A stretch of 33,551 nt of DNA, from positions 1 through 33,551 of IMG/VR virus record IMGVR_UViG_3300030380_005493, one strand, 5' to 3'. The stretch comes from a virus. The notes beneath the pieces were generated by a model. That model had not been told where the DNA came from and did no database searches. It saw nothing but the letters and a program-made list of their open reading frames with translations. Position numbers and translations under genes: made by a program. Of this stretch, positions 2,226-33,407 are shown piece by piece. Numbering within the stretch: the first letter of the stretch is position 1; each line of letters begins with the position of its first letter.

Positions 2226-2582
2226 ATGAAAAAACAAATGAAGAAAAAAAGCAGCAAAGCTAGTAAGTTTGGAATGCTTTCTGTAAAGGCAGGAATAGAT
2301 AAAAATCCTAATCCTACAAAAGCAGATAGAATTGCTGGCGCCAAAAAAGGCAAAAAGAAAATGATGGGCGGAGGTATGATGAAAAAAGATCCTACAGCTG
2401 TCGGTTATGCAGAAGGTGGTAAAGTCAAAAAAGGATACCACAGAACCAAGGACGGCAGAGTAGCCAAAAAAGGTTTATATTATTATATGAACAGAGCAAA
2501 GAAAAGAGGAACAAGTAAACCTGGTAAAGGTACTGTTACCGATAAAGCTCTAAAAAGATCTGCAAAGACTGCTAAGAAATAG
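2226..2582 (+). CDS. Lys-rich basic protein
   Basis: 118 aa, roughly one third Lys/Arg, with Gly/Met-rich stretches (KKMMGGGMMKKD) and an AEGGKVKKG segment near residues 64-72 that resembles the Gly-Gly motifs in the virion proteins on the other strand. Composition suggests nucleic-acid or membrane binding, for example a DNA-condensing virion component; this is inference. It is similar in style but not obviously in sequence to the 120-aa Lys-rich protein at 22639-23001. The start has AGGAG seven bases upstream. Its last 11 bases overlap the convergent sufE gene, and a terminator is built into this overlap. Confidence 0.7.
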   Translation: MKKQMKKKSSKASKFGMLSVKAGIDKNPNPTKADRIAGAKKGKKKMMGGGMMKKDPTAVGYAEGGKVKKGYHRTKDGRVAKKGLYYYMNRAKKRGTSKPGKGTVTDKALKRSAKTAKK

Positions 2583-2602
2583 CATACTCTTTAATTTTTT
2601 TT
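2564..2602 (+). terminator. Intrinsic terminator of the + strand operon, embedded in gene ends
   Basis: AAAGA (2564-2568) and TGCTA (2570-2574) pair with TAGCA (2580-2584) and TCTTT (2588-2592) around an AGAAA loop, followed by eight Ts at 2595-2602. The stem is AT-rich with one internal loop. It spans the stop codons of both the Lys-rich gene and the convergent sufE gene. Read on the other strand the hairpin is followed only by a weak T run, so it is mainly a + strand terminator. Confidence 0.55.
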
Positions 2603-2973
2603 AACATGCCATGGACGCCGTTGTTGCGTCCTGGCGTTAATATTGTCTCCAATTTTAAAATATTAAATTCATCCTGATCAAAATTTACTATCTCTTTTGC
2701 AGTAGATCCACTGTAAACATCAGCAATTAAATTTACCATACCCTTACTAATTAATGCAGCTGAATCTGCAGTAAAATAAATTTTATCTTCTACAAAATGC
2801 GGAACTAACCAAGTTTGTGTTTGACAACCTTGTACTTCAAATGATTTTACTTTGTGTTCTTCATCAAACAAATTAGAATTTTTACCAAACTCCATGATCC
2901 AAACAAATTTGTCTTGGTCACCGTCTATATTATTTAGAACTTGTGCGTATCTTTCTAGTTTTCTTTTTATCAT
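2572..2973 (-). CDS. sufE: SufE-like sulfur acceptor (Fe-S cluster assembly)
   Basis: 133 aa, about the length of cellular SufE. SufE takes persulfide sulfur from the cysteine desulfurase SufS and passes it on, normally to the SufBCD scaffold. The diagnostic block is present: FEVQGCQTQTWLV with Cys50 as the expected persulfide cysteine, then ADSAALISKGMVNLIADVY, then TAKEIVNFD, and LTPGRNNGVHGMLKKI near the C-terminus; these match the SufE/CsdE fold throughout. No SufS is visible, so host SufS would be needed. It is the last gene of the operon. The start overlaps the preceding small gene by 44 bp and has only a weak ribosome site, but the N-terminal length fits the family. SufE function is confident; the phage use is open. 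Confidence 0.9.
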   Translation of the reverse strand: MIKRKLERYAQVLNNIDGDQDKFVWIMEFGKNSNLFDEEHKVKSFEVQGCQTQTWLVPHFVEDKIYFTADSAALISKGMVNLIADVYSGSTAKEIVNFDQDEFNILKLETILTPGRNNGVHGMLKKIKEYAIS

Positions 2974-3085
2974 CTTTAACTTCTTTCATCCAACTTTCTT
3001 TAGGTCCGTAATAATATGCTGTTGTTTCTTCGTATGGATATACTTTTCTTTTTTCTTTGTAAGTTTGTAAAATATATTTAGACAT
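2930..3085 (-). CDS. Small basic hypothetical protein (51 aa)
   Basis: A 51-residue frame starts at ATG 3085-3083 and stops with TAA at 2932-2930. It begins MSKYILQTYKEKRKVYPYEE, has three Tyr before GPKESW, and ends in a Lys/Arg-rich tail. Its first eight bases (ATGTCTAA) overlap the stop of the upstream 104-aa gene, the same junction style used elsewhere in this operon, and it fills the stretch between that gene and sufE that would otherwise be empty. It overlaps the sufE start by 44 bp. No family recognised. Junction type and position support it; its small size keeps confidence moderate. Confidence 0.55.
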   Translation of the reverse strand: MSKYILQTYKEKRKVYPYEETTAYYYGPKESWMKEVKDDKKKTRKIRTSSK

Positions 3086-3392
3086 TACAAGTCTCCAACA
3101 TTTTTATGCATGCAACTTTATCTACAGATGTAGGCAAAGGTTCAAGGTCCTCGATTATTATTTCGTTGTCATCTTGCATCTCATTACTTTTTATGTATGA
3201 ACAACCTGAAACTAGCAAAAAGAAGATAAAGAAGTAAAAAACCATCAAACTGCCCCATAGAATCACCCGGGTCATCCGTTTAAACCCCGATAGCGGGTCG
3301 TTTTTGGCCTTTTTTATTTCGCGGAATTCAGCCATTTCTTGGTCATAGGTCCAAACAGCCATTTCTTCGTTTTTTCGCCATTGATTAGTCAT
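3078..3392 (-). CDS. Small membrane protein / possible lipoprotein
   Basis: 104 aa: a charged N-terminal part (1-39), a hydrophobic segment (about 42-62) ending in LLVSGC, which fits a lipobox with Cys64, then an acidic tail (about 70-104) with two more Cys. A strong TAGGAGG lies before the ATG at 3392, supporting the long form as a membrane protein with its N-terminus inside. An internal ATG (Met40, at 3275) would give a classical 65-aa lipoprotein with Cys25. Either way it would sit at the inner or outer membrane; an o-spanin-like lysis role is possible but unproven. It overlaps the oxygenase gene by eight bases (ATGACTAA). Confidence 0.65.
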   Translation of the reverse strand: MTNQWRKNEEMAVWTYDQEMAEFREIKKAKNDPLSGFKRMTRVILWGSLMVFYFFIFFLLVSGCSYIKSNEMQDDNEIIIEDLEPLPTSVDKVACIKMLETCNV

Positions 3393-4008
3393 TTTTCCTC
3401 CTATCTGGCATATTGATTACATTTGACTCCTCTTTAAAATTTATTTTTGCATTAAATGCAATTGTAATACGTTGTCTGTTACTTCTATTTATATCTACGT
3501 CATGTAAAAGATAAGATGGAAAGCAAAGTACATCACCATCACTAGGTGAATGCGCTATCATGTTTGCATGTGGCATGTGATTAGGTATCATACGATACAT
3601 TTGTTCATGTGTAGCAAATCTAATTAGACCTGTGTTAGCTCCTTGTACATAATACACACCTGATAGATCTGCATCTGCACGGTAGTGTGAATGAAATATA
3701 TTATTGCTGCCTGTCTCGTTTACATTTGTCCAATAAGTTATCTGTGCATCCATAGGTTTTTTAGGAAAGTAATGATCCATGTATGCTGATAGTATCATGC
3801 CTATTGGTTTCATAAGTTCTTGTTCACATTTATATTTAAACATACTACGCCAACAACCAGGATTAGTGCTTATCATACCACCAGGATTATTACCTCGCTC
3901 TTTTTCTATTTCTGCCATTAATAAATTATTTAAATTTTCATGATTGTTCCAACGTTTATAAAACAATCGTGTGTCTTGTATTGGTATTTTACTTATTATT
4001 TCTGTCAT
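3385..4008 (-). CDS. 2OG-Fe(II) oxygenase (TIGR02466-like)
   Basis: 207 aa. Double-stranded beta-helix dioxygenase motifs are visible: HSH at 106-108 followed by DLSGVYYVQG, then GDVLCFPSYLLHDV with the distal His169, and RQRITIAFN with an Arg (178 or 180) for 2-oxoglutarate. Such enzymes use Fe(II), O2 and 2-oxoglutarate to hydroxylate proteins, nucleic acids or small molecules; the phage/cyanobacterial TIGR02466-type group has no firmly known substrate. The start was moved to ATG 4008 because GGAGG lies five bases upstream; the longer frame from 4035 lacks such a site. It lies between the zinc-finger and lipoprotein genes, in the same operon as the PP-loop and SufE genes. Confidence 0.82.
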   Translation of the reverse strand: MTEIISKIPIQDTRLFYKRWNNHENLNNLLMAEIEKERGNNPGGMISTNPGCWRSMFKYKCEQELMKPIGMILSAYMDHYFPKKPMDAQITYWTNVNETGSNNIFHSHYRADADLSGVYYVQGANTGLIRFATHEQMYRMIPNHMPHANMIAHSPSDGDVLCFPSYLLHDVDINRSNRQRITIAFNAKINFKEESNVINMPDRRKND

Positions 4009-4189
4009 AGTCCTCCGTTGAGCATGCTGGCCCACAAAAAAATATCATTCTATATTCTTGTTCAGCATGAAATTTTCTGTCCTTCCAATATAATAATTTT
4101 TTAAACCATTGTCTACATACAGAACATCTAAACTCTGGTCCTTCTCTTAGATCCTCCTTTTTATACTCCACATATACCTTCGCACTCAT
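3989..4189 (-). CDS. Small zinc-finger protein
   Basis: 66 aa from ATG 4189. Four cysteines in a C-x2-C...C-x3-C layout (22, 25, 52, 56: CSVC and CGPAC) with aromatic and basic residues between them point to a single zinc-binding treble-clef or ribbon. It could bind nucleic acid or act as a partner of a neighbouring enzyme. The start is uncertain: ATG 4189 lies inside the end of the PP-loop gene and has no clear ribosome site, while an ATG at 4219 gives 76 aa. A strong AAGGAGG at about 4151-4158 is followed by no usable start in this frame. The 3' end overlaps the oxygenase gene by 20 bp. Confidence 0.65.
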   Translation of the reverse strand: MSAKVYVEYKKEDLREGPEFRCSVCRQWFKKLLYWKDRKFHAEQEYRMIFFCGPACSTEDYDRNNK

Positions 4190-5282
4190 CTGCAAATTCT
4201 TCATCAAATGTTTCACCAAATAATGATGCTTGTTTTTTTGGTTCTAAGAAATCTATATCTCCCAAAGGCTTAGCTGATTTATGTAAATACAGCTTTGCTT
4301 CAGAATTTTTTAATCCATTTCTAATTAAATTATCTACTTCTACAGCATCTGCAAAATCCTCTGGGTAATTTTTTTGCATGTTTTTCCATTGATCATTGTG
4401 ATGATAAGGACAACCTATGCACGATGATTTGCCAGGCATAGGATGTTTTTTTATATCTTTATACCAATTAAGACAATCCATACGAGACATTTTCATTTCT
4501 ATCAAAGGCCAACGTGACGTTAACCACGGCAATCTAGCATTTTTCATACGCATTGCTTCGTCTGTAGATATACCTATCCATTGTTCTACAATCATGTCTT
4601 TAGGCACTCTATGTTTAGGTTTTACACCAAGTAACTCTCTCATTTTCTTTTGTATAGGGATAACTTTATAATCGTGCGTACACTGACGATAAAGCATCCC
4701 TACACGTCCACCTTCACGTGCAGCAAACAACGGTGGGTTTGGTACACGTCCAGCAAAGGATTTATCCGCTTCTTTAGATCCTGGTTCTGGATTCGCTGCT
4801 TTGATAAGGTCTTCTCTGATGTTTCCTCGCTCCACAGTAATTATAGGACAAATCGTTATTGCTTTTTTTAAATATTCTACATGCTCATACACAAATTTAG
4901 GTTCCCACCCAGTGTCAGCAAATATCATATAATCTGGTTTATGTTTTGTTAATCCTTCTTGCGCCATGAGCGCCAAACAGGATGACTGAACCCCTGCACC
5001 GAGTGATAGAATCCGCAAGGTCGGCTCTCTTTGTTCGCCTTGTCCTTCTGTGCTGTCGTAATCTGCTCTGTTACCGTTTTTAAGTAAGTTAGTTGTTTTA
5101 AAATATTTAGGCTCAACCGTAGCTGCAACTGCTGCCATGTTGTTAAGCCTTTTTTGATCAACTTTCTTAGACATTTGCTCAAGAACTTTTCTCCTTTCGT
5201 ACTCCATTTGTTCTGAATTAATGGCAAAATTGCTTTTTTTAATCGCAGCTCTAACCTTACCCTGTTCTCTGTATTTACTCAT
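4161..5282 (-). CDS. PP-loop ATPase, PAPS-reductase/DndC-like
   Basis: 373 aa. After a charged N-terminal extension (1-88), the adenine-nucleotide alpha-hydrolase core begins with the PP-loop SLGAGVQSS (93-101), then FADTGWEP (121-128). Cys201 (RQCTHDYK), Cys270 and the pair Cys288/Cys291 (SSCIGCPYHH) could hold an Fe-S cluster, as in DndC/CysH-type proteins. The extreme C-terminus is ECEGICGV, reminiscent of the redox-active Cys tail of CysH. Family members reduce PAPS or adenylate a substrate for sulfur insertion into tRNA or DNA; which one applies here is not shown. The start overlaps the polymerase stop as ATGA. Company with sufE favours sulfur transfer. Confidence 0.82.
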   Translation of the reverse strand: MSKYREQGKVRAAIKKSNFAINSEQMEYERRKVLEQMSKKVDQKRLNNMAAVAATVEPKYFKTTNLLKNGNRADYDSTEGQGEQREPTLRILSLGAGVQSSCLALMAQEGLTKHKPDYMIFADTGWEPKFVYEHVEYLKKAITICPIITVERGNIREDLIKAANPEPGSKEADKSFAGRVPNPPLFAAREGGRVGMLYRQCTHDYKVIPIQKKMRELLGVKPKHRVPKDMIVEQWIGISTDEAMRMKNARLPWLTSRWPLIEMKMSRMDCLNWYKDIKKHPMPGKSSCIGCPYHHNDQWKNMQKNYPEDFADAVEVDNLIRNGLKNSEAKLYLHKSAKPLGDIDFLEPKKQASLFGETFDEEFADECEGICGV

Positions 5283-7144
5283 TTAGCATCGCCCCAATTA
5301 TCTTTTATTTTGTAATCAACATTAGATGGCACTTTTAATTTCATAGACGTTTCCATTATATTTTTAATTTTCACAGCCATTCTATCATCTTTGACACTGC
5401 AGTTCAATTCATCATGTACCTGTATTAGAGGAATTATCTTTAACTCCTCATAAATATCTACCATGGCTTTTTTAGTTTGATCAGCTGCTGTGCCCTGTAT
5501 GAGTCTATTTAAAGCTTTATATGTGCCAGCTCTTTTGACATTGCCACCATATTCTGCTTGTGCCTGTTTTAATGGCATGGCTTTATGAAACACACCAGGA
5601 TCGTACCACGCAGGTTCATACAAATCAAAACGACATTTTCTGCCTAGCTCTGTTCTTATTGTACCAACTTGGTTTGCCTTATTCATAACAGCTTCTAGCA
5701 TGCCTTGCATAAAAGGAACTTTATCTCTGAACTCCTGCATTAAATCTTTTGCCTCTTTAGGGGCTATATCTAGGTCTACAGCAAGCTTTTTATACCCCAT
5801 GCCGTACATCACACCAAGACCTATCGTTTTAGCTAATCTACGATCAATTCCAGCCATTTCTGCTGTCTGTTTGTGAAAGTCTAATCCCTTTACAAATGCT
5901 TGTTGCACTTCTTCTGCTCCTTCGTTACCATTTCGTATTGCAAAATGTGTAAGTATTCTAGGTTCTTGTTGTGAATAATCTGCAGATAACCAATACTCTC
6001 CTTGTTCTGGTATAAATAATTTACGAAGTTCAGAGCCATACTCATTTCTTATTGGCATTTGCTGTAAGTTTGGTGCGTACATAGAAAATCTACCAGTAAC
6101 AGTGCCACCACTATCCCCTCTAATTTGATTTATGTGTGCGTGTAATCTACCATTATGTATGTGTTTAGATATGCCATCAATAAATGTTCCTTGCAGTTTA
6201 TTTAATACGCGTGCTTTTGTTATCATTCTTGGTAATTCGTGTGCGTGTGTATCTAAAAAACTTTGTGTAAAACTAGGAGCACCAAGTGTTGTACGAGGAT
6301 ATTCTAAATTAACACTATCGAATGCCTGGGCCACAGACCGAGCTGCAAAGATCTGTACGTCATGTCCTACAATATCTTTTATTCTTTTAAGGTAAGTCTT
6401 TTCTTTGTTTCTAAGTTTTGTTCTAAGTCCTTGAGCTCTATCCATGTCAACTCTAACACCACGCTTTGTCATGTTGTAAATAACTCTTATCAATCTACAT
6501 TCTACATCATATACAGGCTCTAACGCATCTTTCTTAATCTCTACTAATAACTTTTCATGTAATCTAAACGTTAACAATGCATCTGCTTCAGCATATTCTC
6601 CTACAAATTCAGCAGGCAACTTATACATCTCTGCTTTAGGATCTATTCCTAACTCATCTGCTTTTGCTTTTAATGTTTTTTCATCTTTGTATTCGCCAAG
6701 GTACTCACTAACAATGCTATTTAATGTGTAAGAAAATCTATTTTCATTTAATAATGCAGCAGCTATCATTGTGTCATGTATGTAACCCTTTACTTCTATG
6801 CCTAATACACTTAACCAACCAATGTCATACTGTGCGTTGTGAAAAACTTTTTGTATTGATTCATCTTCACAAACATCTTTTATATATTTTAAAACTTGTT
6901 TTTTATCCATGTTACCACCACCATCATGTGAAATTGGATAATAGGCAGTAAAATCACCACTGGATATTGCAATTCCAATTACTTTACCAACTTTTCGAGG
7001 CCAACCAGGACCTAATGCTTTTAATTCTGTGTCACAAGTTTCTAAATCTATGGCTACAACTTTTTTACCCTTCATAGATCTATACTCTGTAGGGTGTAAC
7101 CATTCTGCTTTTACTTCATTTTTATTAAATAGATCCACTGTCAC
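5279..7144 (-). CDS. polA: Family A DNA polymerase with 3'-5' exonuclease
   Basis: 621 aa, the phage replicative polymerase. Exonuclease motifs: VAIDLETCD (Asp33, Glu35), VFHNAQYDIGW (Asp107), YAEAD (Tyr184, Asp188). Polymerase motifs: A, SADYSQQEPRI (Asp389); B, RRLAKTIGLGVMYG (435-448); C, QVHDEL (His577, Asp578). There is no 5'-nuclease domain, as usual in phages. The residue equivalent to E. coli Phe762 is Leu443. The start is GTG at 7144, supported by GGGGAG six bases upstream, and lies 20 bp inside the preceding gene. The downstream PP-loop gene overlaps by ATGA. All catalytic residues are intact. Confidence 0.96.
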   Translation of the reverse strand: MTVDLFNKNEVKAEWLHPTEYRSMKGKKVVAIDLETCDTELKALGPGWPRKVGKVIGIAISSGDFTAYYPISHDGGGNMDKKQVLKYIKDVCEDESIQKVFHNAQYDIGWLSVLGIEVKGYIHDTMIAAALLNENRFSYTLNSIVSEYLGEYKDEKTLKAKADELGIDPKAEMYKLPAEFVGEYAEADALLTFRLHEKLLVEIKKDALEPVYDVECRLIRVIYNMTKRGVRVDMDRAQGLRTKLRNKEKTYLKRIKDIVGHDVQIFAARSVAQAFDSVNLEYPRTTLGAPSFTQSFLDTHAHELPRMITKARVLNKLQGTFIDGISKHIHNGRLHAHINQIRGDSGGTVTGRFSMYAPNLQQMPIRNEYGSELRKLFIPEQGEYWLSADYSQQEPRILTHFAIRNGNEGAEEVQQAFVKGLDFHKQTAEMAGIDRRLAKTIGLGVMYGMGYKKLAVDLDIAPKEAKDLMQEFRDKVPFMQGMLEAVMNKANQVGTIRTELGRKCRFDLYEPAWYDPGVFHKAMPLKQAQAEYGGNVKRAGTYKALNRLIQGTAADQTKKAMVDIYEELKIIPLIQVHDELNCSVKDDRMAVKIKNIMETSMKLKVPSNVDYKIKDNWGDAK

Positions 7145-25562: not shown

Positions 25563-27442
25563 TATCTCATTCCATCCGGTCTTACGTCTGCACGATAAGT
25601 TCCATATCTCCATGTAGTATCAATTGCACTGTTAGATATTTTTATTGATGCTTGTCGACCACGTGCTCTTGTATCTACTTTAGTTGTTGTAGGTGTTACA
25701 GTAAAAGGTCCATTTGTAGTACTAGAACTTGTAGGGTACAATTTAAAATTTAATTCTATGTTCACATCTCCTGCTTGGTTTTTAAAATCAGGTATAAATC
25801 TTTTTATAGACATTAAATTATCTCCTGCTTGAGGTAAAACAAAATCTCCAGATGTAATAAAAGAAGACAAAGCTAATCCATCAGCATTCTTTCCATTTTC
25901 ATGACTATATAAAAAACTTCTACCAGCAGTTAATCCTGTTATTGTACTAACAGTAGCTGCTGTGCTAGAATTTTCAAACTCTATTGCTTGAGGGAAACCA
26001 TACACTCCTTTATCAAACCACGAAGATCTGGCAAGACTACCAACATACCAAACTTGTTCTGCATAATTATAAGTTACAGACCTGTTAATTACGTTAGAAC
26101 CATTGGAACAATAAAACCAAGTTACCTCATTAAATTCTGTATTTAATCCTGCAAAGGTATCTTTTTGTGAAGCTTCGTCTATATCTTTAAAAACATAATC
26201 TTCTACGCTGCAAGGTATTTTTTGCACAGAACCATCAAACATAAAAAAAGAATCATTGCCCATCCAATAAGATCTACCGTTAGATTCTATTGCTGCATGC
26301 TGACCTACACATCCACACGCAGAACCTAGTTGTTGAAAACCAAATATAAAAGGAGCACCAATTAATTGCATTTGATACAATGCAGTATCAGACCACACAA
26401 GCACAGCACCACGAGAACGTTTTGCTGTTACAAGTTTAGATCCATCAGTTAACCTTTGAGATCCAGCAGTGTTTGTAGATGTAGGTGTCCATTGTGCAGG
26501 GTCTTCTTGATCTGACCAACGAAGAAACATATCATCACGAGTTGACGGTGTGCCTATGGTTGTCTCTGTACCAAAACAAATTACATGTCTATCTGTACCA
26601 GAAACTAAAACAAATCTACTAGATGTAGGTGCTCCAGAAACTTGTGTTCTATTTGCACGTTGCACAGTTGAGGTGCTTGCAGATGTGTCCCAATAATATA
26701 AACTACCGTTAAGTTGTTGTGCTAAAACATCTTCACCCCAATTGTCTAATGACCATTTACCTGAATCAAGCTGTACACTGTTAGGTGCCGCAAGGGATGC
26801 ACGAGATTTATTCCAACCAGGTCCTCCAGATGCACCACCGTAAGGTCCTGCACCCCAACCATATCCTAATATAGAAAATGGTGGTCTAGTATTTATTTGA
26901 TACTCTGCTGTGCCTGTTACACCACTAGCGCCATTGCCACTAGCCGCTGCTTTTGCTGTAATTACATAATTGTTTGTGTCTATTACAGATTGTATTTCAA
27001 ATTCACCTTGTAGATTTGTTGCTGTAATACCATTAGCTGTGCCTGAAACACTGGATATAGTAACAAAATCACCCTCTACAGCACCGTGCGTAGCGTCTGT
27101 TACTGTGACTGATGTAGATGTGTTGGTTGTTGTAAAATTAGTTATTGATGCACCAGTTTCTCTTATTGGCGTGATGTCATGAAAAGCTTGGTTTTGATAA
27201 ACGTATAATTTTTTGTTAGTGCCTGTCATTAAATATTGATCTCCATCTAATGAAAACCAATTTATAATTCCTCTTGCTGCACCTAACAAAGCCTCTGGTG
27301 TAGTCTTTGCCCAACCACCTATTTTTTCTGGTAATCCATATCTAAAACGAACATTATCACAATCTACCCAGCGCCCTTCTGCACCGTACTCAGTGTCTTG
27401 TTTATCTATTCCAGGTGCTAATTCTATTTTTACTAACGGCAT
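25562..27442 (-). CDS. Tail protein, gp10-like (packaged-DNA stabilisation type)
   Basis: 626 aa, beta-rich. The start MPLVKIELAPGIDKQDTEYG followed by WVDCDNVRFRYGLPEKIGGW is typical of podovirus tail/stabilisation proteins that plug the portal and carry the tail needle or fibres (P22 gp10-like in annotation). A Thr/Val-rich insertion (about 100-175) looks like an Ig-like domain. SILGYGWGAGPYGG (about 194-207) and repeated Trp/Gly strands suggest a beta-propeller. It lies between the fibre genes and the small tail genes. The start overlaps the upstream gene by one base (TAATG, GGTGAG upstream). Good confidence as tail protein, less for the exact P22 equivalence. Confidence 0.75.
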   Translation of the reverse strand: MPLVKIELAPGIDKQDTEYGAEGRWVDCDNVRFRYGLPEKIGGWAKTTPEALLGAARGIINWFSLDGDQYLMTGTNKKLYVYQNQAFHDITPIRETGASITNFTTTNTSTSVTVTDATHGAVEGDFVTISSVSGTANGITATNLQGEFEIQSVIDTNNYVITAKAAASGNGASGVTGTAEYQINTRPPFSILGYGWGAGPYGGASGGPGWNKSRASLAAPNSVQLDSGKWSLDNWGEDVLAQQLNGSLYYWDTSASTSTVQRANRTQVSGAPTSSRFVLVSGTDRHVICFGTETTIGTPSTRDDMFLRWSDQEDPAQWTPTSTNTAGSQRLTDGSKLVTAKRSRGAVLVWSDTALYQMQLIGAPFIFGFQQLGSACGCVGQHAAIESNGRSYWMGNDSFFMFDGSVQKIPCSVEDYVFKDIDEASQKDTFAGLNTEFNEVTWFYCSNGSNVINRSVTYNYAEQVWYVGSLARSSWFDKGVYGFPQAIEFENSSTAATVSTITGLTAGRSFLYSHENGKNADGLALSSFITSGDFVLPQAGDNLMSIKRFIPDFKNQAGDVNIELNFKLYPTSSSTTNGPFTVTPTTTKVDTRARGRQASIKISNSAIDTTWRYGTYRADVRPDGMR

Positions 27443-28257
27443 TACTCACCACTTGTATAAAATCTAATCCAACGTTCTGTTCCGTTTATCTTAACTCTTA
27501 TTGCTCCTGCCTTTGTTCCTGCACTTGCTGTAGAACTAGATAAACTTTTAGAACTGTTAGATGCCGATGTTCCTACAAAATTTGTAAAAGCTTCGTCAGT
27601 ATCTAATTGCTCTAATTGTAAAACTGGTATTGCACCAGAAGCTGAAGACTGGTTTATATGTAATTTACCGTTTGGTGTTGGAGCTCCTATACTAACTCTG
27701 TCAGCACTTCCATCTGTTAACAACAAGTTTTGATCAGTATCGCCTTCAAACCTAGCGTCTACTGCTGCACCTGATTGGTTATACACAAAAGATCCACCGT
27801 CAAATGATACATCGCCCGACACTGTAAGTGTGCCTGACAATGCCATGTTAGCTAAATTTTCTGGTATTTGAAACGCTGATGTACCATCAGTGTAAATTAA
27901 ATGTATTGCACCTGCTGTAAGTGTTACTGCACTACCGCCAGAAGGTCCAAAAGTAAGTGAATTACCAGCTCTTGTTGTAGCATCTTTTATTATGTACCAG
28001 TTAGGATTTGCTTCACATGTTAATGCAGTAGAACCTGACAATGTACCTGTTAAATTAAGAACCGCTCTACTTTGTTGGTCACCTGTACCACCGCTAGCAA
28101 CAGTTAATGCTTGTGATGTGCCAGTGATTGCAACACTTGCATATCCTTTAATTGCATTTTCTATTTTTTCTAAGTTATCGTTTGTTTTAGATCCCCATGT
28201 ACCAGCGTTTGCACCAGTGGTCTGGAGGTCTAAATTTAATATTGTCGAATCAGCCAT
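27442..28257 (-). CDS. Tail-fibre/adaptor protein
   Basis: 271 aa. The N-terminal segment LQTTGANAGTWGSKTNDNLE followed by IENAIKGYASVAITG is a common attachment domain of marine phage tail fibres. The middle has TLTVSGDVSFDGGSFVYNQS type beta-helix strands, and the end, AGAIRVKINGTERWIRFYTSGE-like, is a typical beta-strand cap. It should form an elongated trimer linking the tail to receptor-binding parts; this is inferred from pattern. AAGGAG lies before the ATG. It shares one base with the gp10-like gene and follows the repeat-built fibre gene by nine bases. Confidence 0.75.
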   Translation of the reverse strand: MADSTILNLDLQTTGANAGTWGSKTNDNLEKIENAIKGYASVAITGTSQALTVASGGTGDQQSRAVLNLTGTLSGSTALTCEANPNWYIIKDATTRAGNSLTFGPSGGSAVTLTAGAIHLIYTDGTSAFQIPENLANMALSGTLTVSGDVSFDGGSFVYNQSGAAVDARFEGDTDQNLLLTDGSADRVSIGAPTPNGKLHINQSSASGAIPVLQLEQLDTDEAFTNFVGTSASNSSKSLSSSTASAGTKAGAIRVKINGTERWIRFYTSGE

Positions 28258-28266
28258 ATTATCTCC

Positions 28267-28902
28267 TTATCCTGTTGGAACGACAGTCCATGAATTACCA
28301 CTAGAATCGTCTACACCATTCCAGATTGTTAGTTTTGGATCTCCTACTTGTGCTGCAATGCTAACACCAGTTGGAATTACAAGAGCAGAAGCTGATACAG
28401 TTACTGTTCCTAAACCAAATGTTGCCTGCACACCAGCAGGAAAATATCTTGACTCTAATGTAACACTTCCTACAGCAAATGTCGAGGACACTCCTGTTAC
28501 AGGGACATTAGCAGAACCTGATACATTAGGGTCTCCTACAGCAAAAGTAGAAACTACACCTGTAGGTTCTACAAGAGCAGAACCTGCTACAGTTACTGTA
28601 CCAAGAGACGATGTAATTTGTAAACCTGTTGGTATAACTAATACACCAGCTGTTACTACAACATCTCCAACAGACATTGTTGCATCTACACCTGTAGGTG
28701 TTACTACAATCTCTGTTATTACTGTTACAGCACCAACATTAGCAGAAAAAGATATACCAGTTGGTTCTACTAATACACCAGCTGTTACTGTTACCGTGCC
28801 AAGACTACCTGTTAATTGTTGTCCGGTTACCGCTACTACGGCATTTTGATCGACGTCCTCGGAAAAGGCACGCTCACCGAATGATGCAGCGCCAAAAGTC
28901 AT
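28267..28902 (-). CDS. Fibre-like protein built of 22-residue repeats
   Basis: 211 aa. After a short N-terminus (MTFGAASFGERAFSED) there are eight repeats with the core G-x-V-x-V-T-A-x-x-L-V-x-P-T-G-V: the Thr-Gly (or Ala-Gly) anchors are at 26, 48, 70, 92, 114, 136, 156 and 178, that is 22 residues apart six of seven times. A C-terminal non-repeat end (KLTIWNGVDDSSGNSWTV) follows. Such regular Val/Thr/Gly repeats build beta-solenoids or fibres; receptor binding or shaft formation is likely but not shown. Six repeats of identical length suggest recent or constrained expansion. It starts directly after the 74-aa stop with no strong ribosome site. Confidence 0.75.
   Translation of the reverse strand: MTFGAASFGERAFSEDVDQNAVVAVTGQQLTGSLGTVTVTAGVLVEPTGISFSANVGAVTVITEIVVTPTGVDATMSVGDVVVTAGVLVIPTGLQITSSLGTVTVAGSALVEPTGVVSTFAVGDPNVSGSANVPVTGVSSTFAVGSVTLESRYFPAGVQATFGLGTVTVSASALVIPTGVSIAAQVGDPKLTIWNGVDDSSGNSWTVVPTG
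28339..28848 (-). repeat. Eight 66-bp (22-aa) coding repeats
   Basis: Coding repeats of the 211-aa gene, roughly residues 19-188. Anchors recur every 66 bp except one 60-bp unit between the sixth and seventh anchors. The composition produces a long false frame on the + strand (27992-28849). Confidence 0.8.
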
Positions 28903-29127
28903 TTACAGCTTATCCATCTCCGCCTTAACGGCTGTCCAACTTAATTCGCTATGTGGATTAGTTTCACTTAATACTGCTGTTGGAAAATCTGATTTACTGT
29001 TATCAACATCAATAACCCATCTAATTTTATTAAAATCAGATTCACTATTTATTTCTCCATCAAATGTAAATTCTGCATCAGCTTTTAAAGTTTTAATTGC
29101 TGAACAAACTTTTTCTGAATTAGTCAT
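28903..29127 (-). CDS. Small acidic protein between fibre genes
   Basis: 74 aa. Acidic, mixed helix and strand: EKVCSAIKTLKADAEFTFDG, then IRWVIDVDNSKSD and ELSWTAVKAEMDKL. The Trp-containing end resembles small proteins that follow fibre genes in marine phages and may act as chaperones or caps; this is inference. It starts in TAATG overlap with the 192-aa fibre gene. It is one of four small genes placed between fibre paralogues (with those at 29705, 31237 and 32546). Confidence 0.65.
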   Translation of the reverse strand: MTNSEKVCSAIKTLKADAEFTFDGEINSESDFNKIRWVIDVDNSKSDFPTAVLSETNPHSELSWTAVKAEMDKL

Positions 29128-29705
29128 TATGCTAAAATCTCCATTGCTGTTATAGTTGCTTGTGTGCTATTAGTACAAATATCACCATTACTATTTCCGT
29201 TTCTTTTACAATAGACAGCATAAGTTTGTTGAGATGTAGAACTTGGTTCATGTATTCTTGTAAAACTTATTCCATCATTATGAGCAGCACCATCGGATTT
29301 ATAGCCAAAATTACCACCAAATTTATATTCTGCACTTCCGTTTCTATATAAAGAAAAATCTAACCCTTCATTATCTGTACCCGCAATAGTAAAAGTTGGA
29401 ATAGAAATAATAATTAATATTTTTGAACTAGTTGCTACAGGTGTTATATCTACATCTAATGAAGTTAATAAAGCATAACTGCCAGAATTTATTGTTTGAG
29501 TACTTGATTTAACATCCTGCACAATTTGACCAATCTTACCAGTATCAACTGCGGAACTAGCAACTGTAGTGCTACCTGTAAACTTTAAAAATTGTCCAGA
29601 AGTACCAGAAGTTAATCCTGTGCCACCATTACCAACAGCAAGCGTACCTGTAGTGTTAGTCGCTAAGTTAATTGATTGATTCAGTCCTAGTCTAGTTAAT
29701 GCCAT
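29127..29705 (-). CDS. Short tail-fibre protein (paralogue 1)
   Basis: 192 aa. Residues about 18-53 (TTGTLAVGNGGTGLTSGTSG, then QFLKFTGSTTVASSAV) are a fibre linker found again in the 203-aa paralogue at 32796-33407. Residues about 70-192 form a beta-rich globular tip (ILIIISIPTFTIAG, then LDFSLYRNGSAEYKFGGNFG, and ATITAMEILA at the end) of jelly-roll type. It probably binds a receptor or another fibre subunit. It starts in TAATG with the 101-aa gene. Linker shared, tip different: the usual sign of domain swapping among fibres. Confidence 0.75.
   Translation of the reverse strand: MALTRLGLNQSINLATNTTGTLAVGNGGTGLTSGTSGQFLKFTGSTTVASSAVDTGKIGQIVQDVKSSTQTINSGSYALLTSLDVDITPVATSSKILIIISIPTFTIAGTDNEGLDFSLYRNGSAEYKFGGNFGYKSDGAAHNDGISFTRIHEPSSTSQQTYAVYCKRNGNSNGDICTNSTQATITAMEILA
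29547..29630 (-). repeat. Fibre linker repeat, copy 1
   Basis: 84 bp coding for NGGTGLTSGTSGQFLKFTGS followed by TTVASSAV. It matches 33267-33350 closely on both protein and DNA level (for example the same TTTAAAAATTG and CTAGCAACTGTAGT strings on the + strand). Direct orientation, about 3.7 kb apart: a substrate for recombination between fibre genes. Confidence 0.75.
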
Positions 29706-30010
29706 TAAGAATTACTCCTTGCTTCTGCCTCATCATCTCTTACTTTTCTGTTTTTATAATCTGATCTTGCTAAAACTAAATTAACAAAAGATGTCTGATC
29801 ACTTGGAATAGGATCAGTAAAAGAAGAATCATCCATCAATTTTTGTGTCCATTCATTTCTAAATCTTTTCCAACAGTTATTAACTTTACCATTCATTGCT
29901 TCTTGAATCCATGTATCTATTCCTGCATTATCTGTATCATTGTATAAATCATTAGATAATATCTTTTGTTGTGTTTCTGTTAATGTTATAGTTTTTGTAT
30001 GATCAGCCAT
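29705..30010 (-). CDS. Small charged helical protein between fibre genes
   Basis: 101 aa. Helical, charged: ITLTETQQKILSNDLYNDTD, then GIDTWIQEAMNGKVNNCWKR, and SDYKNRKVRDDEAEARSNS. The first part looks like a short conserved phage domain found near fibre or tail genes. AAAGGAGG lies before the ATG at 30010, the strongest ribosome site in this part of the operon. The 29 bases upstream (30011-30039) hold only this site. Possibly a fibre assembly factor; not assigned to a family. Confidence 0.65.
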   Translation of the reverse strand: MADHTKTITLTETQQKILSNDLYNDTDNAGIDTWIQEAMNGKVNNCWKRFRNEWTQKLMDDSSFTDPIPSDQTSFVNLVLARSDYKNRKVRDDEAEARSNS

Positions 30011-30039
30011 TTAAACCTCCTTTAAAGTTAATTGTTTCA

Positions 30040-30660
30040 TTAGACCGCTAAAAATCCAGAGAACTGACTTCTATCTGAATAAAATTCTTGACTTCCATCT
30101 TCATAATTTCTAAATCTCACTAATGCAGTATCACTTGCATCCATATCTGTTAAAACAGATAGATATAACATATCTGCATTTGACCTTGCCGATTTAACTC
30201 TTGAATCCATATTTCTATTAGAAGTTTGTAATCTAATATAAATATCGTTACTTGATGTAAAACCAGATATTCCTAAAGTTATATTAAATTGATATTTTCC
30301 AGTTACAGGAGCAGTAAAAGTATATGTTGAGTTATTATAATCTGATCCAACATCAAAAACTTCAGTTGCATATTTCATAGTTGATTCAGTATCCATACCA
30401 GTTCTTGATTCACCTGTTACTGTTGCATAAAAACAAGGTTGTAATGGTTTATTTATAGAACCATCAGAATTTAATGTCATCCCAGTTCCACTAGACATAT
30501 TAGTAGTTATGCCTGTTACTCCACCACCAAATCCTGTAGCTGTGCCACTGTTTGCAATAGTGCAACCTGACGGAATCGTAATTGTATCGCCTGACTCCCC
30601 TATTTGAGTAGAAGTCCCTGACGCTGGTGTAATCTTATCTACTTTTAGTTCACTTGTCAT
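30040..30660 (-). CDS. Short tail-fibre protein with C1q-like tip (paralogue 2)
   Basis: 206 aa. N-terminal fibre linker IGESGDTITIPSGCTIANSG and TATGFGGG (about 20-47), shared in parts with the 190- and 207-aa paralogues. Residues about 75-206 read like a C1q/TNF-type jelly roll: YNNSTYTFTAPVTGKYQFNI is the typical strand pair, followed by DIYIRLQTSNRNMDSRVKSA and a final FSGFLAV strand. Such domains trimerise and bind ligands, so host attachment is likely. It starts one base after the stop of the 190-aa gene with a GGGG upstream. The matching parts are linker and first tip strands; the rest diverges. Confidence 0.76.
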   Translation of the reverse strand: MTSELKVDKITPASGTSTQIGESGDTITIPSGCTIANSGTATGFGGGVTGITTNMSSGTGMTLNSDGSINKPLQPCFYATVTGESRTGMDTESTMKYATEVFDVGSDYNNSTYTFTAPVTGKYQFNITLGISGFTSSNDIYIRLQTSNRNMDSRVKSARSNADMLYLSVLTDMDASDTALVRFRNYEDGSQEFYSDRSQFSGFLAV

Positions 30661-30661
30661 T

Positions 30662-31234
30662 TTACGTTACCCCTGTTATTCTGTAAGCACCCCAGTGACC
30701 TGTATCTTGGTCTTCTTCAGCGCCACCATTTACATTTTCACTACTGCCTCCATTTTGATAACCATATAATTCTATATAATCATCCGAGTCTAAACGTATA
30801 ACTTGACCAAAAGCTCTAGTAGTTGAATTTGTTTGAAACTGTGTAAATTTTGAAACTAAAGAACCATTTTTGTAAACTGCAATAATACTTGCAGCAATAT
30901 CTGTTCCTGTGTCCATTCTAAATTTACCCCATACCCAATACTTACCTGCTGTGCCTGGAGTAAAACGGTAATTGCTAGTATCATATTTTGAATCAGTGTC
31001 GTAAACTTCTGTGTCCATTTCCATTTTTGTATAAGTAGTGTTTGCTAAACTTTGATTGCCATTCATGTAAGCTTGAAACGAAGGAGTCATAGTTTCTGCA
31101 GTAGCATACGCTGACCCTGCAAGATTAACCGTGTCACCTGTTGTTCCAATATTAATCGTGTCACCTGACTCACCAATAGATATTGACGATCCAGACTGCT
31201 TGATAATTTCGTTTACTTTAATTTGTGATACCAT
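30662..31234 (-). CDS. Short tail-fibre protein with C1q-like tip (paralogue 3)
   Basis: 190 aa. N-terminus IGESGDTINIGTTGDTVNLA (20-39) mirrors paralogue 2. The tip contains MDTEVYDTDSKYDTSNYRFT, then GTAGKYWVWGKF, clearly parallel to TEVFDVGSDYNNSTYTFT in paralogue 2, and ends GHWGAYRITGVT, as does the truncated gene at the right edge (YFGAYKLIGV). It is a C1q/TNF-like receptor-binding head by pattern. Starts two bases after the 72-aa gene's stop, poor ribosome site, so coupled translation is likely. Confidence 0.76.
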   Translation of the reverse strand: MVSQIKVNEIIKQSGSSISIGESGDTINIGTTGDTVNLAGSAYATAETMTPSFQAYMNGNQSLANTTYTKMEMDTEVYDTDSKYDTSNYRFTPGTAGKYWVWGKFRMDTGTDIAASIIAVYKNGSLVSKFTQFQTNSTTRAFGQVIRLDSDDYIELYGYQNGGSSENVNGGAEEDQDTGHWGAYRITGVT

Positions 31235-31236
31235 TG

Positions 31237-31455
31237 TTAAAATCTCTCAATTCTTTCTTTGTCAGCATCTAATTTATTTTGCCATGCTGTTTTAACTTCA
31301 TCTGTCCAATGTTCATTAGCTAAATTTTTAATTTGTTCATCTTCGCTTGATACATCTTGATGAGGGTGAAAAACTTTTCTGTGTCTACCTTGCTCAGTAT
31401 CTTCAGCAACATGAATTGCTTTAAATTCGCCTATGACTTTTATATCTGATATCAT
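31237..31455 (-). CDS. Small protein between fibre genes
   Basis: 72 aa. N-terminal strands (MISDIKVIGEFKAIHVAED), a His-rich stretch (GRHRKVFHPHQDVSSEDEQI) and a C-terminal helix with Trp (EHWTDEVKTAWQNKLDADKE). Similar small proteins with a VFxP-xxDVSxED-x(n)-WT-xEV pattern follow fibre genes in other marine phages as I recall; no function known. Starts in an ATGA overlap with the 207-aa fibre gene. Possibly a fibre chaperone or a competing adaptor for one of the fibres. Confidence 0.65.
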   Translation of the reverse strand: MISDIKVIGEFKAIHVAEDTEQGRHRKVFHPHQDVSSEDEQIKNLANEHWTDEVKTAWQNKLDADKERIERF

Positions 31456-32075
31456 ACTCTATACGTTCCATTTAAACAATAGACAGAACCATTACCAAAT
31501 GGTGGGCCTAAAATTACAAGAGTTGTTGTGTTTCTTGACTGTATAGTATCAAAAGCAGTACCACTTGATTCTGTTTCTCTACCTCTATTAATTGTGTGAA
31601 TTAATCCTGTTGCAGCTGTAGTAAAAGGTAAGTTATAAACTTCTATATTTCCAGAAGCACTGCCATTAGTAGTTATTCCAATAGAAATTTGATAATGAAC
31701 AAGGTTTCCAATTTTTGTATAAAACCCAGTCATAGTACCTTTTGCTGAAAAGCTATTATTTGTTGGGTCTGCGTCTGGTGTAAATGTACCAAACTCATAA
31801 TCATTTAATAAGTTAGAAGCAGTTGCAGAATTGACACCTAAGTAAATTCCTGCATTTGCATTTGCTGGAAGTAAATCATTGTTGCCTCCATTGTTTGACC
31901 AGCCTGTAATACCAAAACCAGTAGCGGTTCCTGCATTTGCTAAAGTTACACCAGCAGGTATGTTTACTGTGTCGCCTGAAACACCAAGATTTATTGTAGC
32001 AGTATTTGTACTGCCAATCTGCATTGTATTAGATCCTGATGGTGTATCTATTGTAATTGTTTCTAGCTTACTCAT
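31452..32075 (-). CDS. Short tail-fibre protein (paralogue 4)
   Basis: 207 aa. Linker INLGVSGDTVNIPAGVTLAN followed by AGTATGFGITGW (28-59) is the counterpart of the linker in paralogue 2. The tip (about 85-207) differs: TFTPDADPTNNSFSAKGTMT, then GFYTKIGNLVHYQISIGI, and a last strand VYCLNGTYRV. The GFYTKIGNLVHYQ pattern is frequent in phage fibre heads that are not C1q-like. It starts in an ATGA overlap with the 157-aa gene. Shared linker with an unrelated tip again indicates modular exchange. Confidence 0.75.
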   Translation of the reverse strand: MSKLETITIDTPSGSNTMQIGSTNTATINLGVSGDTVNIPAGVTLANAGTATGFGITGWSNNGGNNDLLPANANAGIYLGVNSATASNLLNDYEFGTFTPDADPTNNSFSAKGTMTGFYTKIGNLVHYQISIGITTNGSASGNIEVYNLPFTTAATGLIHTINRGRETESSGTAFDTIQSRNTTTLVILGPPFGNGSVYCLNGTYRV

Positions 32076-32545
32076 ACGATAACAAACGTTGCTCCTGATG
32101 GTACGGTTAAGGTCGAACCAGATTGTACCGTAAATGGTCCAGCTACAAGTGCGTTGTCACTTGCTGCTAATGTTAAATTCTGTGTTAGTGTTTGCACGTT
32201 TCGATATACTCCGTTTATGGTTGTCAGTTTCTCAAACGAGATACTTGCATCTGCTGGAGTACCAGCGTCAAAACTATTACCTAGTAAAATACCAAAAAAA
32301 GTATCACTTGATGCTGGTGGTCCTGTAAATGCTATTGTACTACGAGTGCTACCAAAAGTAAATGCGCTATTTGGTTCTTGAATAACGCCAGATATAGAAA
32401 TTATTAATTGGTTAAGACTTGCTATTTCTGCAGTCTCGCCTCCTATTTGTACGTTAAACTCTGTTGCTGATCCGTTAAATCCTGAACTAATGTCATCGAT
32501 TTTCTGAAACGCGCCAAAATCTAAACCTGGTCCAATGTATCCCAT
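32072..32545 (-). CDS. Fibre-associated beta-rich protein (attachment-type domain)
   Basis: 157 aa. FNGSATEFNVQIGGETAEIA, then LNQLIISISGVIQEPNSAFT and FGSTRSTIAFTGPPASSD followed by FFGILLGNSFDAGTPAD are the elements of a domain repeated in cyanophage and other marine fibre proteins. The end is a short beta-helix-like stretch (ALVAGPFTVQSGSTLTVPSG). Here it forms a separate short protein rather than the front of a long fibre, so it may be the tail-proximal adaptor to which other short fibres attach; inference. GGAGG lies six bases before the ATG at 32545. Confidence 0.73.
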   Translation of the reverse strand: MGYIGPGLDFGAFQKIDDISSGFNGSATEFNVQIGGETAEIASLNQLIISISGVIQEPNSAFTFGSTRSTIAFTGPPASSDTFFGILLGNSFDAGTPADASISFEKLTTINGVYRNVQTLTQNLTLAASDNALVAGPFTVQSGSTLTVPSGATFVIV

Positions 32546-32794
32546 CTAACCTCCGTTTGCTGCATCCCATGCATCTTGCAGCTCCTTTAATTTTGCATTG
32601 ACTGCAGACTCTGTTGGTAACTCTGTTACAGGATTATCTACAAGATTTCCATTAACACCAATTTTTTCAGAAAGTTTTAAATTAGCATAAATTTTATTCT
32701 TACTGTCTGACCAACCAAACCATTGATTGTCGTGCATTTTTACTAAAGCATCTTCAATATGATTTGGTCTTAAATGTGGTGCTGTCATATTCAT
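32546..32794 (-). CDS. Small protein between fibre genes
   Basis: 82 aa from ATG 32794. It carries LRPNHIEDALVKMHDNQWFG, WSDSKNKIYANLKLSE and an acidic helix (ESAVNAKLKELQDAWDAANG). No family recognised; it looks like a small adaptor or chaperone such as often accompanies fibre genes. ATG 32794 was chosen because GGGAG stands upstream and it begins two bases after the 203-aa gene's stop; a longer frame from 32827 would lie inside that gene. Confidence 0.62.
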   Translation of the reverse strand: MNMTAPHLRPNHIEDALVKMHDNQWFGWSDSKNKIYANLKLSEKIGVNGNLVDNPVTELPTESAVNAKLKELQDAWDAANGG

Positions 32795-32795
32795 T

Positions 32796-33407
32796 TTATG
32801 TATCTCCCATTCTAATAAACGCAACATGGCTTAAAAGATAGCTACTAGTTGTATAATAAGTTGAGCTATTATTTGTATAATATGCAAATTTAATTTTGCA
32901 ATTTGATGTATCTGTTACATCAAAATATATTTCGTTAAAACCAGATGTGTGAGTATTGTTACTTTGTACACCAGAAACAGAAGTATCAGCACTAGAAAGT
33001 TCAGTATAAGTGTTATTATTAATAGTAGTATAAACTCTTTTAGTTATAGTTCTGTCATCTCCGTTTTTATAAACCGACACAGCAAAAGTAATTTTATAAA
33101 TACCTGTACTTGGAAAAGTAAATATCCCACTGCTTTGTGACATTCCAGTTCCAATTTTATTAAATCCTGTGTCATCAACTCTTTCCCAGTTATTTGCAAT
33201 CGGGTCTGTTGTTGAACTAAAACCACTTGTTACTCTCCACATATCAGCTTCAGTAATACCTGCACTTACGGCTGCACTAGCAACTGTAGTTGAACCTGTA
33301 AATTTTAAAAATTGTCCCGTGGTTCCTGACGCTATGCCTGTACCACCATTCGCTACAGGGATTGTTCCTGTTATTCCTTTTGTTACGTCTATCGTTGCAA
33401 ATGCCAT
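32796..33407 (-). CDS. Short tail-fibre protein with C1q-like tip (paralogue 5)
   Basis: 203 aa. Linker VANGGTGIASGTTGQFLKFT and GSTTVASAAV (18-47) is nearly the same as in paralogue 1. The tip (about 55-203) contains SSGIFTFPSTGIYKITFAVS, the Gly-x-Tyr strand pair of C1q/TNF-like jelly rolls, then FNEIYFDVTDTSNCKIKFAY and a final YLLSHVAFIRMGD. Receptor binding is inferred. AGGAG lies upstream of the ATG at 33407. The same linker with a different tip in paralogue 1 is direct evidence of modular reshuffling. Confidence 0.76.
   Translation of the reverse strand: MAFATIDVTKGITGTIPVANGGTGIASGTTGQFLKFTGSTTVASAAVSAGITEADMWRVTSGFSSTTDPIANNWERVDDTGFNKIGTGMSQSSGIFTFPSTGIYKITFAVSVYKNGDDRTITKRVYTTINNNTYTELSSADTSVSGVQSNNTHTSGFNEIYFDVTDTSNCKIKFAYYTNNSSTYYTTSSYLLSHVAFIRMGDT
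33267..33350 (-). repeat. Fibre linker repeat, copy 2
   Basis: 84 bp coding for NGGTGIASGTTGQFLKFTGS followed by TTVASAAV, the counterpart of 29547-29630 in the same orientation. Homologous recombination between the copies would delete or exchange about 3.7 kb of fibre genes. Confidence 0.75.

Follow-up and report, generated by a model that had tools for sequence, protein, structure and literature searches.

A PP-loop protein related to SspD and its clade-wide SufE neighbour in marine phages: a possible route of sulfur into nucleic acid

Organization of the locus

The window analysed here is an IMG/VR virus record of 33,551 bases (IMGVR_UViG_3300030380_005493), which has a GC content of 34-38% and contains no tRNA genes over this length. 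On the minus strand, an unbroken run of genes extends from 7144 to 2572 in the order of DNA polymerase A (PolA), a PP-loop protein, a small Cys4 zinc-type protein, a 2OG-Fe(II) oxygenase, two small ORFs and SufE (Table 1), and its SufE end meets plus-strand genes tail-to-tail. The original prediction, made from the sequence, had placed the PP-loop protein, zinc protein, oxygenase and SufE here, in agreement with the coordinates and family matches; the two small ORFs and the upstream PolA gene were missing from its list.

Table 1. Genes of the minus-strand run, listed from its PolA end
Gene product	Positions	Strand	Basis and remarks
DNA polymerase A (PolA)	5279..7144	-	PF00476, E 3e-69; opens the run and abuts the PP-loop gene
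SspD-like PP-loop sulfurtransferase (predicted), 373 aa	4161..5282	-	phrog_424, PADLOC SspD, trees, hhalign, AF2 model
Small Cys4 (CxxC...CxxxC) putative treble-clef zinc protein, accessory	3989..4219	-	invariant cysteines
2OG-Fe(II) oxygenase, accessory	3385..4035	-	PF13759/phrog_81
104-aa ORF with a hydrophobic stretch, probably membrane-anchored	3078..3392	-	homologs in part of the clade
51-aa ORF overlapping the SufE start	2930..3085	-	conserved in part of the clade
SufE sulfur-acceptor protein, 133 aa	2572..2973	-	PF02657; Cys50 in VQGCQTQTW

SufE is recognized by PF02657 with an E-value of 1e-31 (109 bits against a cut-off of 27), and its active-site cysteine, Cys50 (GCQ), is the same in all 14 homologs. 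The oxygenase matches PF13759 (E 5e-16, 59 bits against a cut-off of 27) as well as phrog_81. All four cysteines of the zinc protein (C32, C35, C62 and C66) are invariant in 26 homologs, as expected for the four-Cys zinc protein that had been predicted, and a fold search of it gave weak L24e/TRASH-like matches only, none of them significant. In Synechococcus phage Ssp-JY39, a small NrdR-type zinc-ribbon gene lies directly after the PP-loop gene with a 4-base overlap (locus L101, 6891-7076), providing a second instance of a small Cys4 protein at that position.

Judging from ATG codons and Shine-Dalgarno sequences, the likely true starts of the oxygenase and the zinc protein are at 4008 and 4189, respectively, the latter falling within the 3' end of the PP-loop gene. 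Because the two ORFs overlap (4161-4219), the tail of the PP-loop protein (ECEGICG) and the N-terminus of the zinc protein share coding bases. The dN/dS ratio is 0.071 for the PP-loop gene, 0.060 for PolA, 0.167 for SufE, 0.142 for the oxygenase and 0.33 for the zinc gene, the last value being affected by this overlap. The PP-loop gene is under strong purifying selection, and that on SufE and the oxygenase is clear. Hundreds of viral relatives, together with the low dN/dS ratios, confirm that the genes are real and not chance ORFs. By PolA and a tail protein, the nearest isolates, 39-50% identical, are HTVC023P/HTVC027P (SAR11) and DSL-LC04 (Gammaproteobacteria).

The PP-loop protein and its relatives

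The PP-loop protein matches phrog_424 (E 2e-46) and, across its cysteine-bearing half, the SspD model of PADLOC (E 1.7e-10); its score for Pfam PAPS_reduct is below the cut-off. When the family profile was compared by hhalign, SspD was found at 98.7% (E 3e-16, 213 columns), DndC at 28% and CysH at 13%. In three trees built with DndC, SspD, CysH and CysD taken from genomes, the family forms a supported clade that is sister to SspD (98/92; 92 without CysD; 99 without DndC) and outside the CysH/CysD clade. This clade is long-branched, a caveat to its placement, and separate from SspD, not nested within it. The kinship with DNA thiolation that had been considered originally is thus supported by phylogeny and hhalign, both of which place the family beside SspD and not with PAPS reductases.

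Motifs common to the family and SspD are RxCTxxxKxxP, (I/V)xxxDE and CxxC, and the invariant residues C201, D241/E242 and C288/C291 correspond to C88, D120/E121 and C173/C176 of SspD, the sulfur-transfer subunit in single-strand DNA phosphorothioation by SspABCD. Both proteins also have a C-terminal cysteine pair, and both would receive sulfur by a cysteine desulfurase route. On the other hand, the phage protein has an additional invariant cysteine, C270, and ends in a C-x3-C tail, whereas the tail of SspD is CxxC. The loop SLGAGVQS is invariant in the family, and its GAGVQS part aligns to SGGKDS of SspD; because this signature is altered, ATP pyrophosphatase chemistry of the PP-loop protein is doubtful. 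To judge from sequence comparison, the protein is SspD-like, SspD being its closest known relative among the families tested, and yet by the loop it does not belong to SspD itself.

The cysteines C201, C270, C288 and C291, which had been named as candidate cluster ligands at exactly these positions, are invariant in 32 homologs together with C371, and C367 is conserved in at least 90% of them. The tail pair C367/C371 (ECEGICGV) is kept across phages, Pseudomonadota and Bacillota, with the general pattern ECEG[ILM]CG[VL], which differs in Streptomyces members. An N-terminal extension of about 85 residues is specific to the phage clade. In the AF2 model (mean pLDDT 78), the core exceeds 90 and the tail is disordered; the model matches CysH, APS reductase, NcsA, TtuA and LarE at the superfamily level only, with CysH and APS reductase as the best. 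The only convincing sequence match in the PDB is 21fy, named 'PptA' (E 5e-4). A literature search found no paper on PptA, and this structure may already explain part of the finding described here.

DndC, which has a role in DNA sulfur, resembles the phage protein in its PP-loop domain and in the FRWCT...K..P and CxxC motifs, but its profile match is weak, it belongs to a separate clade, and DndD/DndE were not seen with the phage gene. CysH and APS reductase share with the family the superfamily fold, an S-[LF]-G-A loop and a conserved cysteine in the C-terminal tail, and differ in clade, in the arrangement of cluster cysteines and in the low profile match. The catalytic tail ECGLH of CysH is similar to, but not identical with, that of the phage family, which lacks the ECG(L/I)H form. 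An identity with CysH was rejected on account of tree, profile and cysteine layout, which equally speak against plain sulfate assimilation, the alternative raised originally from the CysH-like ECEGIC tail. The phage 'PAPS reductases' of phrog_424, including HTVC034P gp12, SSIP1 ORF25, P23-77 ORF3 and those of Mycobacterium abscessus prophages, belong to the same family at about 28-45% identity; the aligned members have no 85-residue extension, and SufE is absent in the four isolate records checked.

Linkage of SufE to the PP-loop gene

Viral scans with the PP-loop protein, the PP-loop alignment and the polymerase gave 125 distinct clade loci. SufE lies 0.5-3.9 kb 3' of the PP-loop gene at all 34 distinct loci having at least 2.5 kb of downstream sequence, and at 56 of the 59 having at least 1.5 kb. 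Scans starting from SufE recover the same phages, and in this reverse direction the PP-loop gene is present at every fetched SufE locus whose contig extends far enough upstream. The linkage persists although PolA identity drops to 63% and UvrD identity to about 45%, and although the intervening genes change. The co-occurrence to be sought beyond this contig is thereby supported for this pair, in effect with one origin.

The zinc gene and the oxygenase behave differently. Both occur at 25 of the 59 loci, the zinc gene alone at nine, the oxygenase alone at seven and neither at 18, so that the zinc gene is present at 34 (absent at 25) and the oxygenase at 32 (absent at 27); SufE is retained regardless. 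An obligate four-gene cassette was therefore rejected. What stands of the predicted sulfur-relay cassette is the pairing of the PP-loop gene with SufE, the grouping with SspD and the reliance on a host desulfurase; the zinc protein and the oxygenase as core components do not.

Outside the clade, SufE was found at none of seven loci with room for it, carrying PP-loop homologs at 48-51% identity, and it is absent from the whole records of HTVC034P, Salisaeta phage SSIP1, Geobacillus phage PK5.1 and Synechococcus phage Ssp-JY39. In the phages next closest to the clade (PolA about 49%), both genes are missing or the PP-loop gene occurs without SufE; more distant polymerase relatives are devoid of both, and two unrelated phages have SufE and no PP-loop gene. 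As none of the relatives checked outside the clade shows the linkage, it represents one inherited association. The PP-loop gene is close to PolA in every clade member where the contig permits, the two genes adjoining throughout the clade, and no case came to light in which the PP-loop gene and SufE had been lost together. Because these polymerase neighbours are equally universal, the linkage supports a common function less than the raw count implies.

Genomic context of distant homologs

At bacterial PP-loop loci (L163-L241), an ArdC-type antirestriction gene is found upstream in 29 of 80 and a large ParB_N-like gene downstream in 29 of 80, as raw counts (e.g., L173:6988-7941 and L168:9668-11815). 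The arrangement looks like a mobile-element module. No Dnd genes were found in 10 genomes of bacteria carrying the family. In sister phages without SufE, the PP-loop gene has a C5 cytosine DNA methyltransferase gene two genes upstream (L155:4577-5680 and L157:4202-5704), and its neighbours in other phages include genes for DNA polymerase, replication, a methylase or a DpdA-like protein. These contexts weakly favour DNA and antirestriction over tRNA.

Proposed mechanism and alternatives

The presence of SufE a few genes after the PP-loop enzyme throughout the clade suggests that these phages sulfurate nucleic acid, with their own DNA as the likeliest target. It is quite possible, and is the reading preferred here, that an SspD-like sulfurtransferase is fed by SufE from host SufS and probably modifies phage DNA. 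We infer an Fe-S cluster, a transfer from SufE to the PP-loop protein, the substrate, the DNA target and a protective role along the following lines. Host SufS would generate a persulfide from cysteine, and Cys50 of phage SufE would accept it and hand it on to the PP-loop protein. In the latter, C201, C270, C288 and C291 probably hold a [4Fe-4S] cluster, and the flexible C-terminal tail (C367-x3-C371) could receive the sulfur. The activated nucleic acid on which the enzyme would then place it is most likely that of the phage itself, its DNA in the course of replication, a target considered because the PP-loop gene follows that of the phage DNA polymerase. The sulfur mark may protect phage DNA against host nucleases, with the zinc protein and the oxygenase as optional add-ons to a two-protein core. 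Cysteine desulfurase (PF00266) was absent in 10 clade records of up to 70 kb, which may be incomplete, and the sulfur must therefore come from the host, as had been predicted. In the known Dnd and Ssp systems, the cysteine desulfurase (SspA/DndA) is encoded with the other components or, in some cases, comes from a host gene located far away. The fuller proposal, that an abundant marine clade marks its DNA by a minimal sulfuration system consisting of the SspD-like protein, SufE and host SufS, in which the PP-loop is unusual and cysteines of the tail act as a relay, is possible but rather doubtful. The altered loop casts doubt on the preferred reading, as do the SLGA motif and the ECxG tail, which recall CysH. 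Among the window genes scanned, neither SspB/SspC, the partners that phosphorothioation requires, nor DndD/DndE were seen, the DUF4007 search having run without a positive control; SspA was not found either, and the phage clade has SufE in place of it. The single origin of the SufE linkage and the PP-loop homologs elsewhere without phage SufE also count against this reading.

The PP-loop homologs that occur without phage SufE equally favour its main rival, in which SufE serves general Fe-S assembly and is functionally separate from the PP-loop gene. Two unrelated phages have SufE alone, SufE is no more universal in the clade than other core genes, and viral sufE in an oxygen-minimum-zone virome has been proposed to assist Fe-S assembly (PMC8940887). 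The SufE described there is likewise phage-borne without SufS, but has no PP-loop link. SufE in the present clade, however, stays in the same gene run and follows the PP-loop gene at a distance of between a few hundred and a few thousand bases, while the genes between them turn over, and a separate function is accordingly somewhat improbable, though a serious alternative. It is less plausible still that the genes are unrelated neighbours kept together by a shared genome plan: the variability of the zinc gene and the oxygenase and the confinement of the association to one phage clade would fit such a history, but all the genes are under purifying selection, and both sulfur genes are universally retained over a diverged clade, which makes it quite unlikely.

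Two further alternatives concern the substrate. The pair might thiolate host or phage tRNA in the manner of TtcA, TtuA or NcsA and thereby alter translation during infection. Persulfide carriers are known to feed tRNA thiolation, and the PP-loop enzymes that resemble the AF2 model, at the fold level only, include NcsA and TtuA. Nevertheless, profile and trees (the latter without tRNA thiolases) place the protein with SspD, the window has no tRNA genes, and the neighbours of homologs are DNA-modification or antirestriction genes, so that tRNA is an unlikely target, albeit a little less so than the neutral history above. A PAPS/APS-reductase-like enzyme for sulfate assimilation would be in keeping with the best fold matches, the CysH-like SLGA loop, the ECxG-type tail and the common annotation. 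It is very improbable in view of the CysH value in hhalign, the position outside the CysH/CysD clade, the PAPS_reduct score below the cut-off, the extra C270 and the different setting of CxxC.

Relation to earlier work

Genes for 'PAPS reductases' abound in phages and, as a matter of routine, are assigned to the auxiliary genes of sulfate assimilation. Such genes have been remarked to resemble DndC (PMC8092301) and said to deserve study (PMC11437467), and SspD-like matches have been noted in Sinorhizobium prophages (PMC12429752). In the literature searched, with preprints and many subscription journals outside the search, no paper pairing SufE with this PP-loop family was found. The kinship with SspD and, throughout a large clade of marine phages, the constant partnership with SufE bear on the long-standing question of what these phage genes do, in a form testable by mass spectrometry, and they caution against taking phage 'PAPS reductase' genes for sulfur-cycling genes.

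Variation among contigs

The window is about 97-100% identical to contig G018 (L297) in most of the genes before about 27.4 kb, and the tail/fibre genes at 27442-33407 of the window are quite different, probably reflecting a swapped receptor-binding region. A frameshift in G018 (3093-3409) splits the 104-aa ORF; SufE is split across two frames in G011 (locus L065, 14843-15191), and a weak SufE match in G017 (2659-2877) is interrupted by a stop. These interruptions are either sequencing errors or decay. A GTDB contig labelled Planctomycetaceae TMED10 (L162, NHBP01000011.1) carries a PP-loop gene that is 87% identical; the contig therefore probably belongs to this phage clade and was assigned to a bacterial genome in binning.
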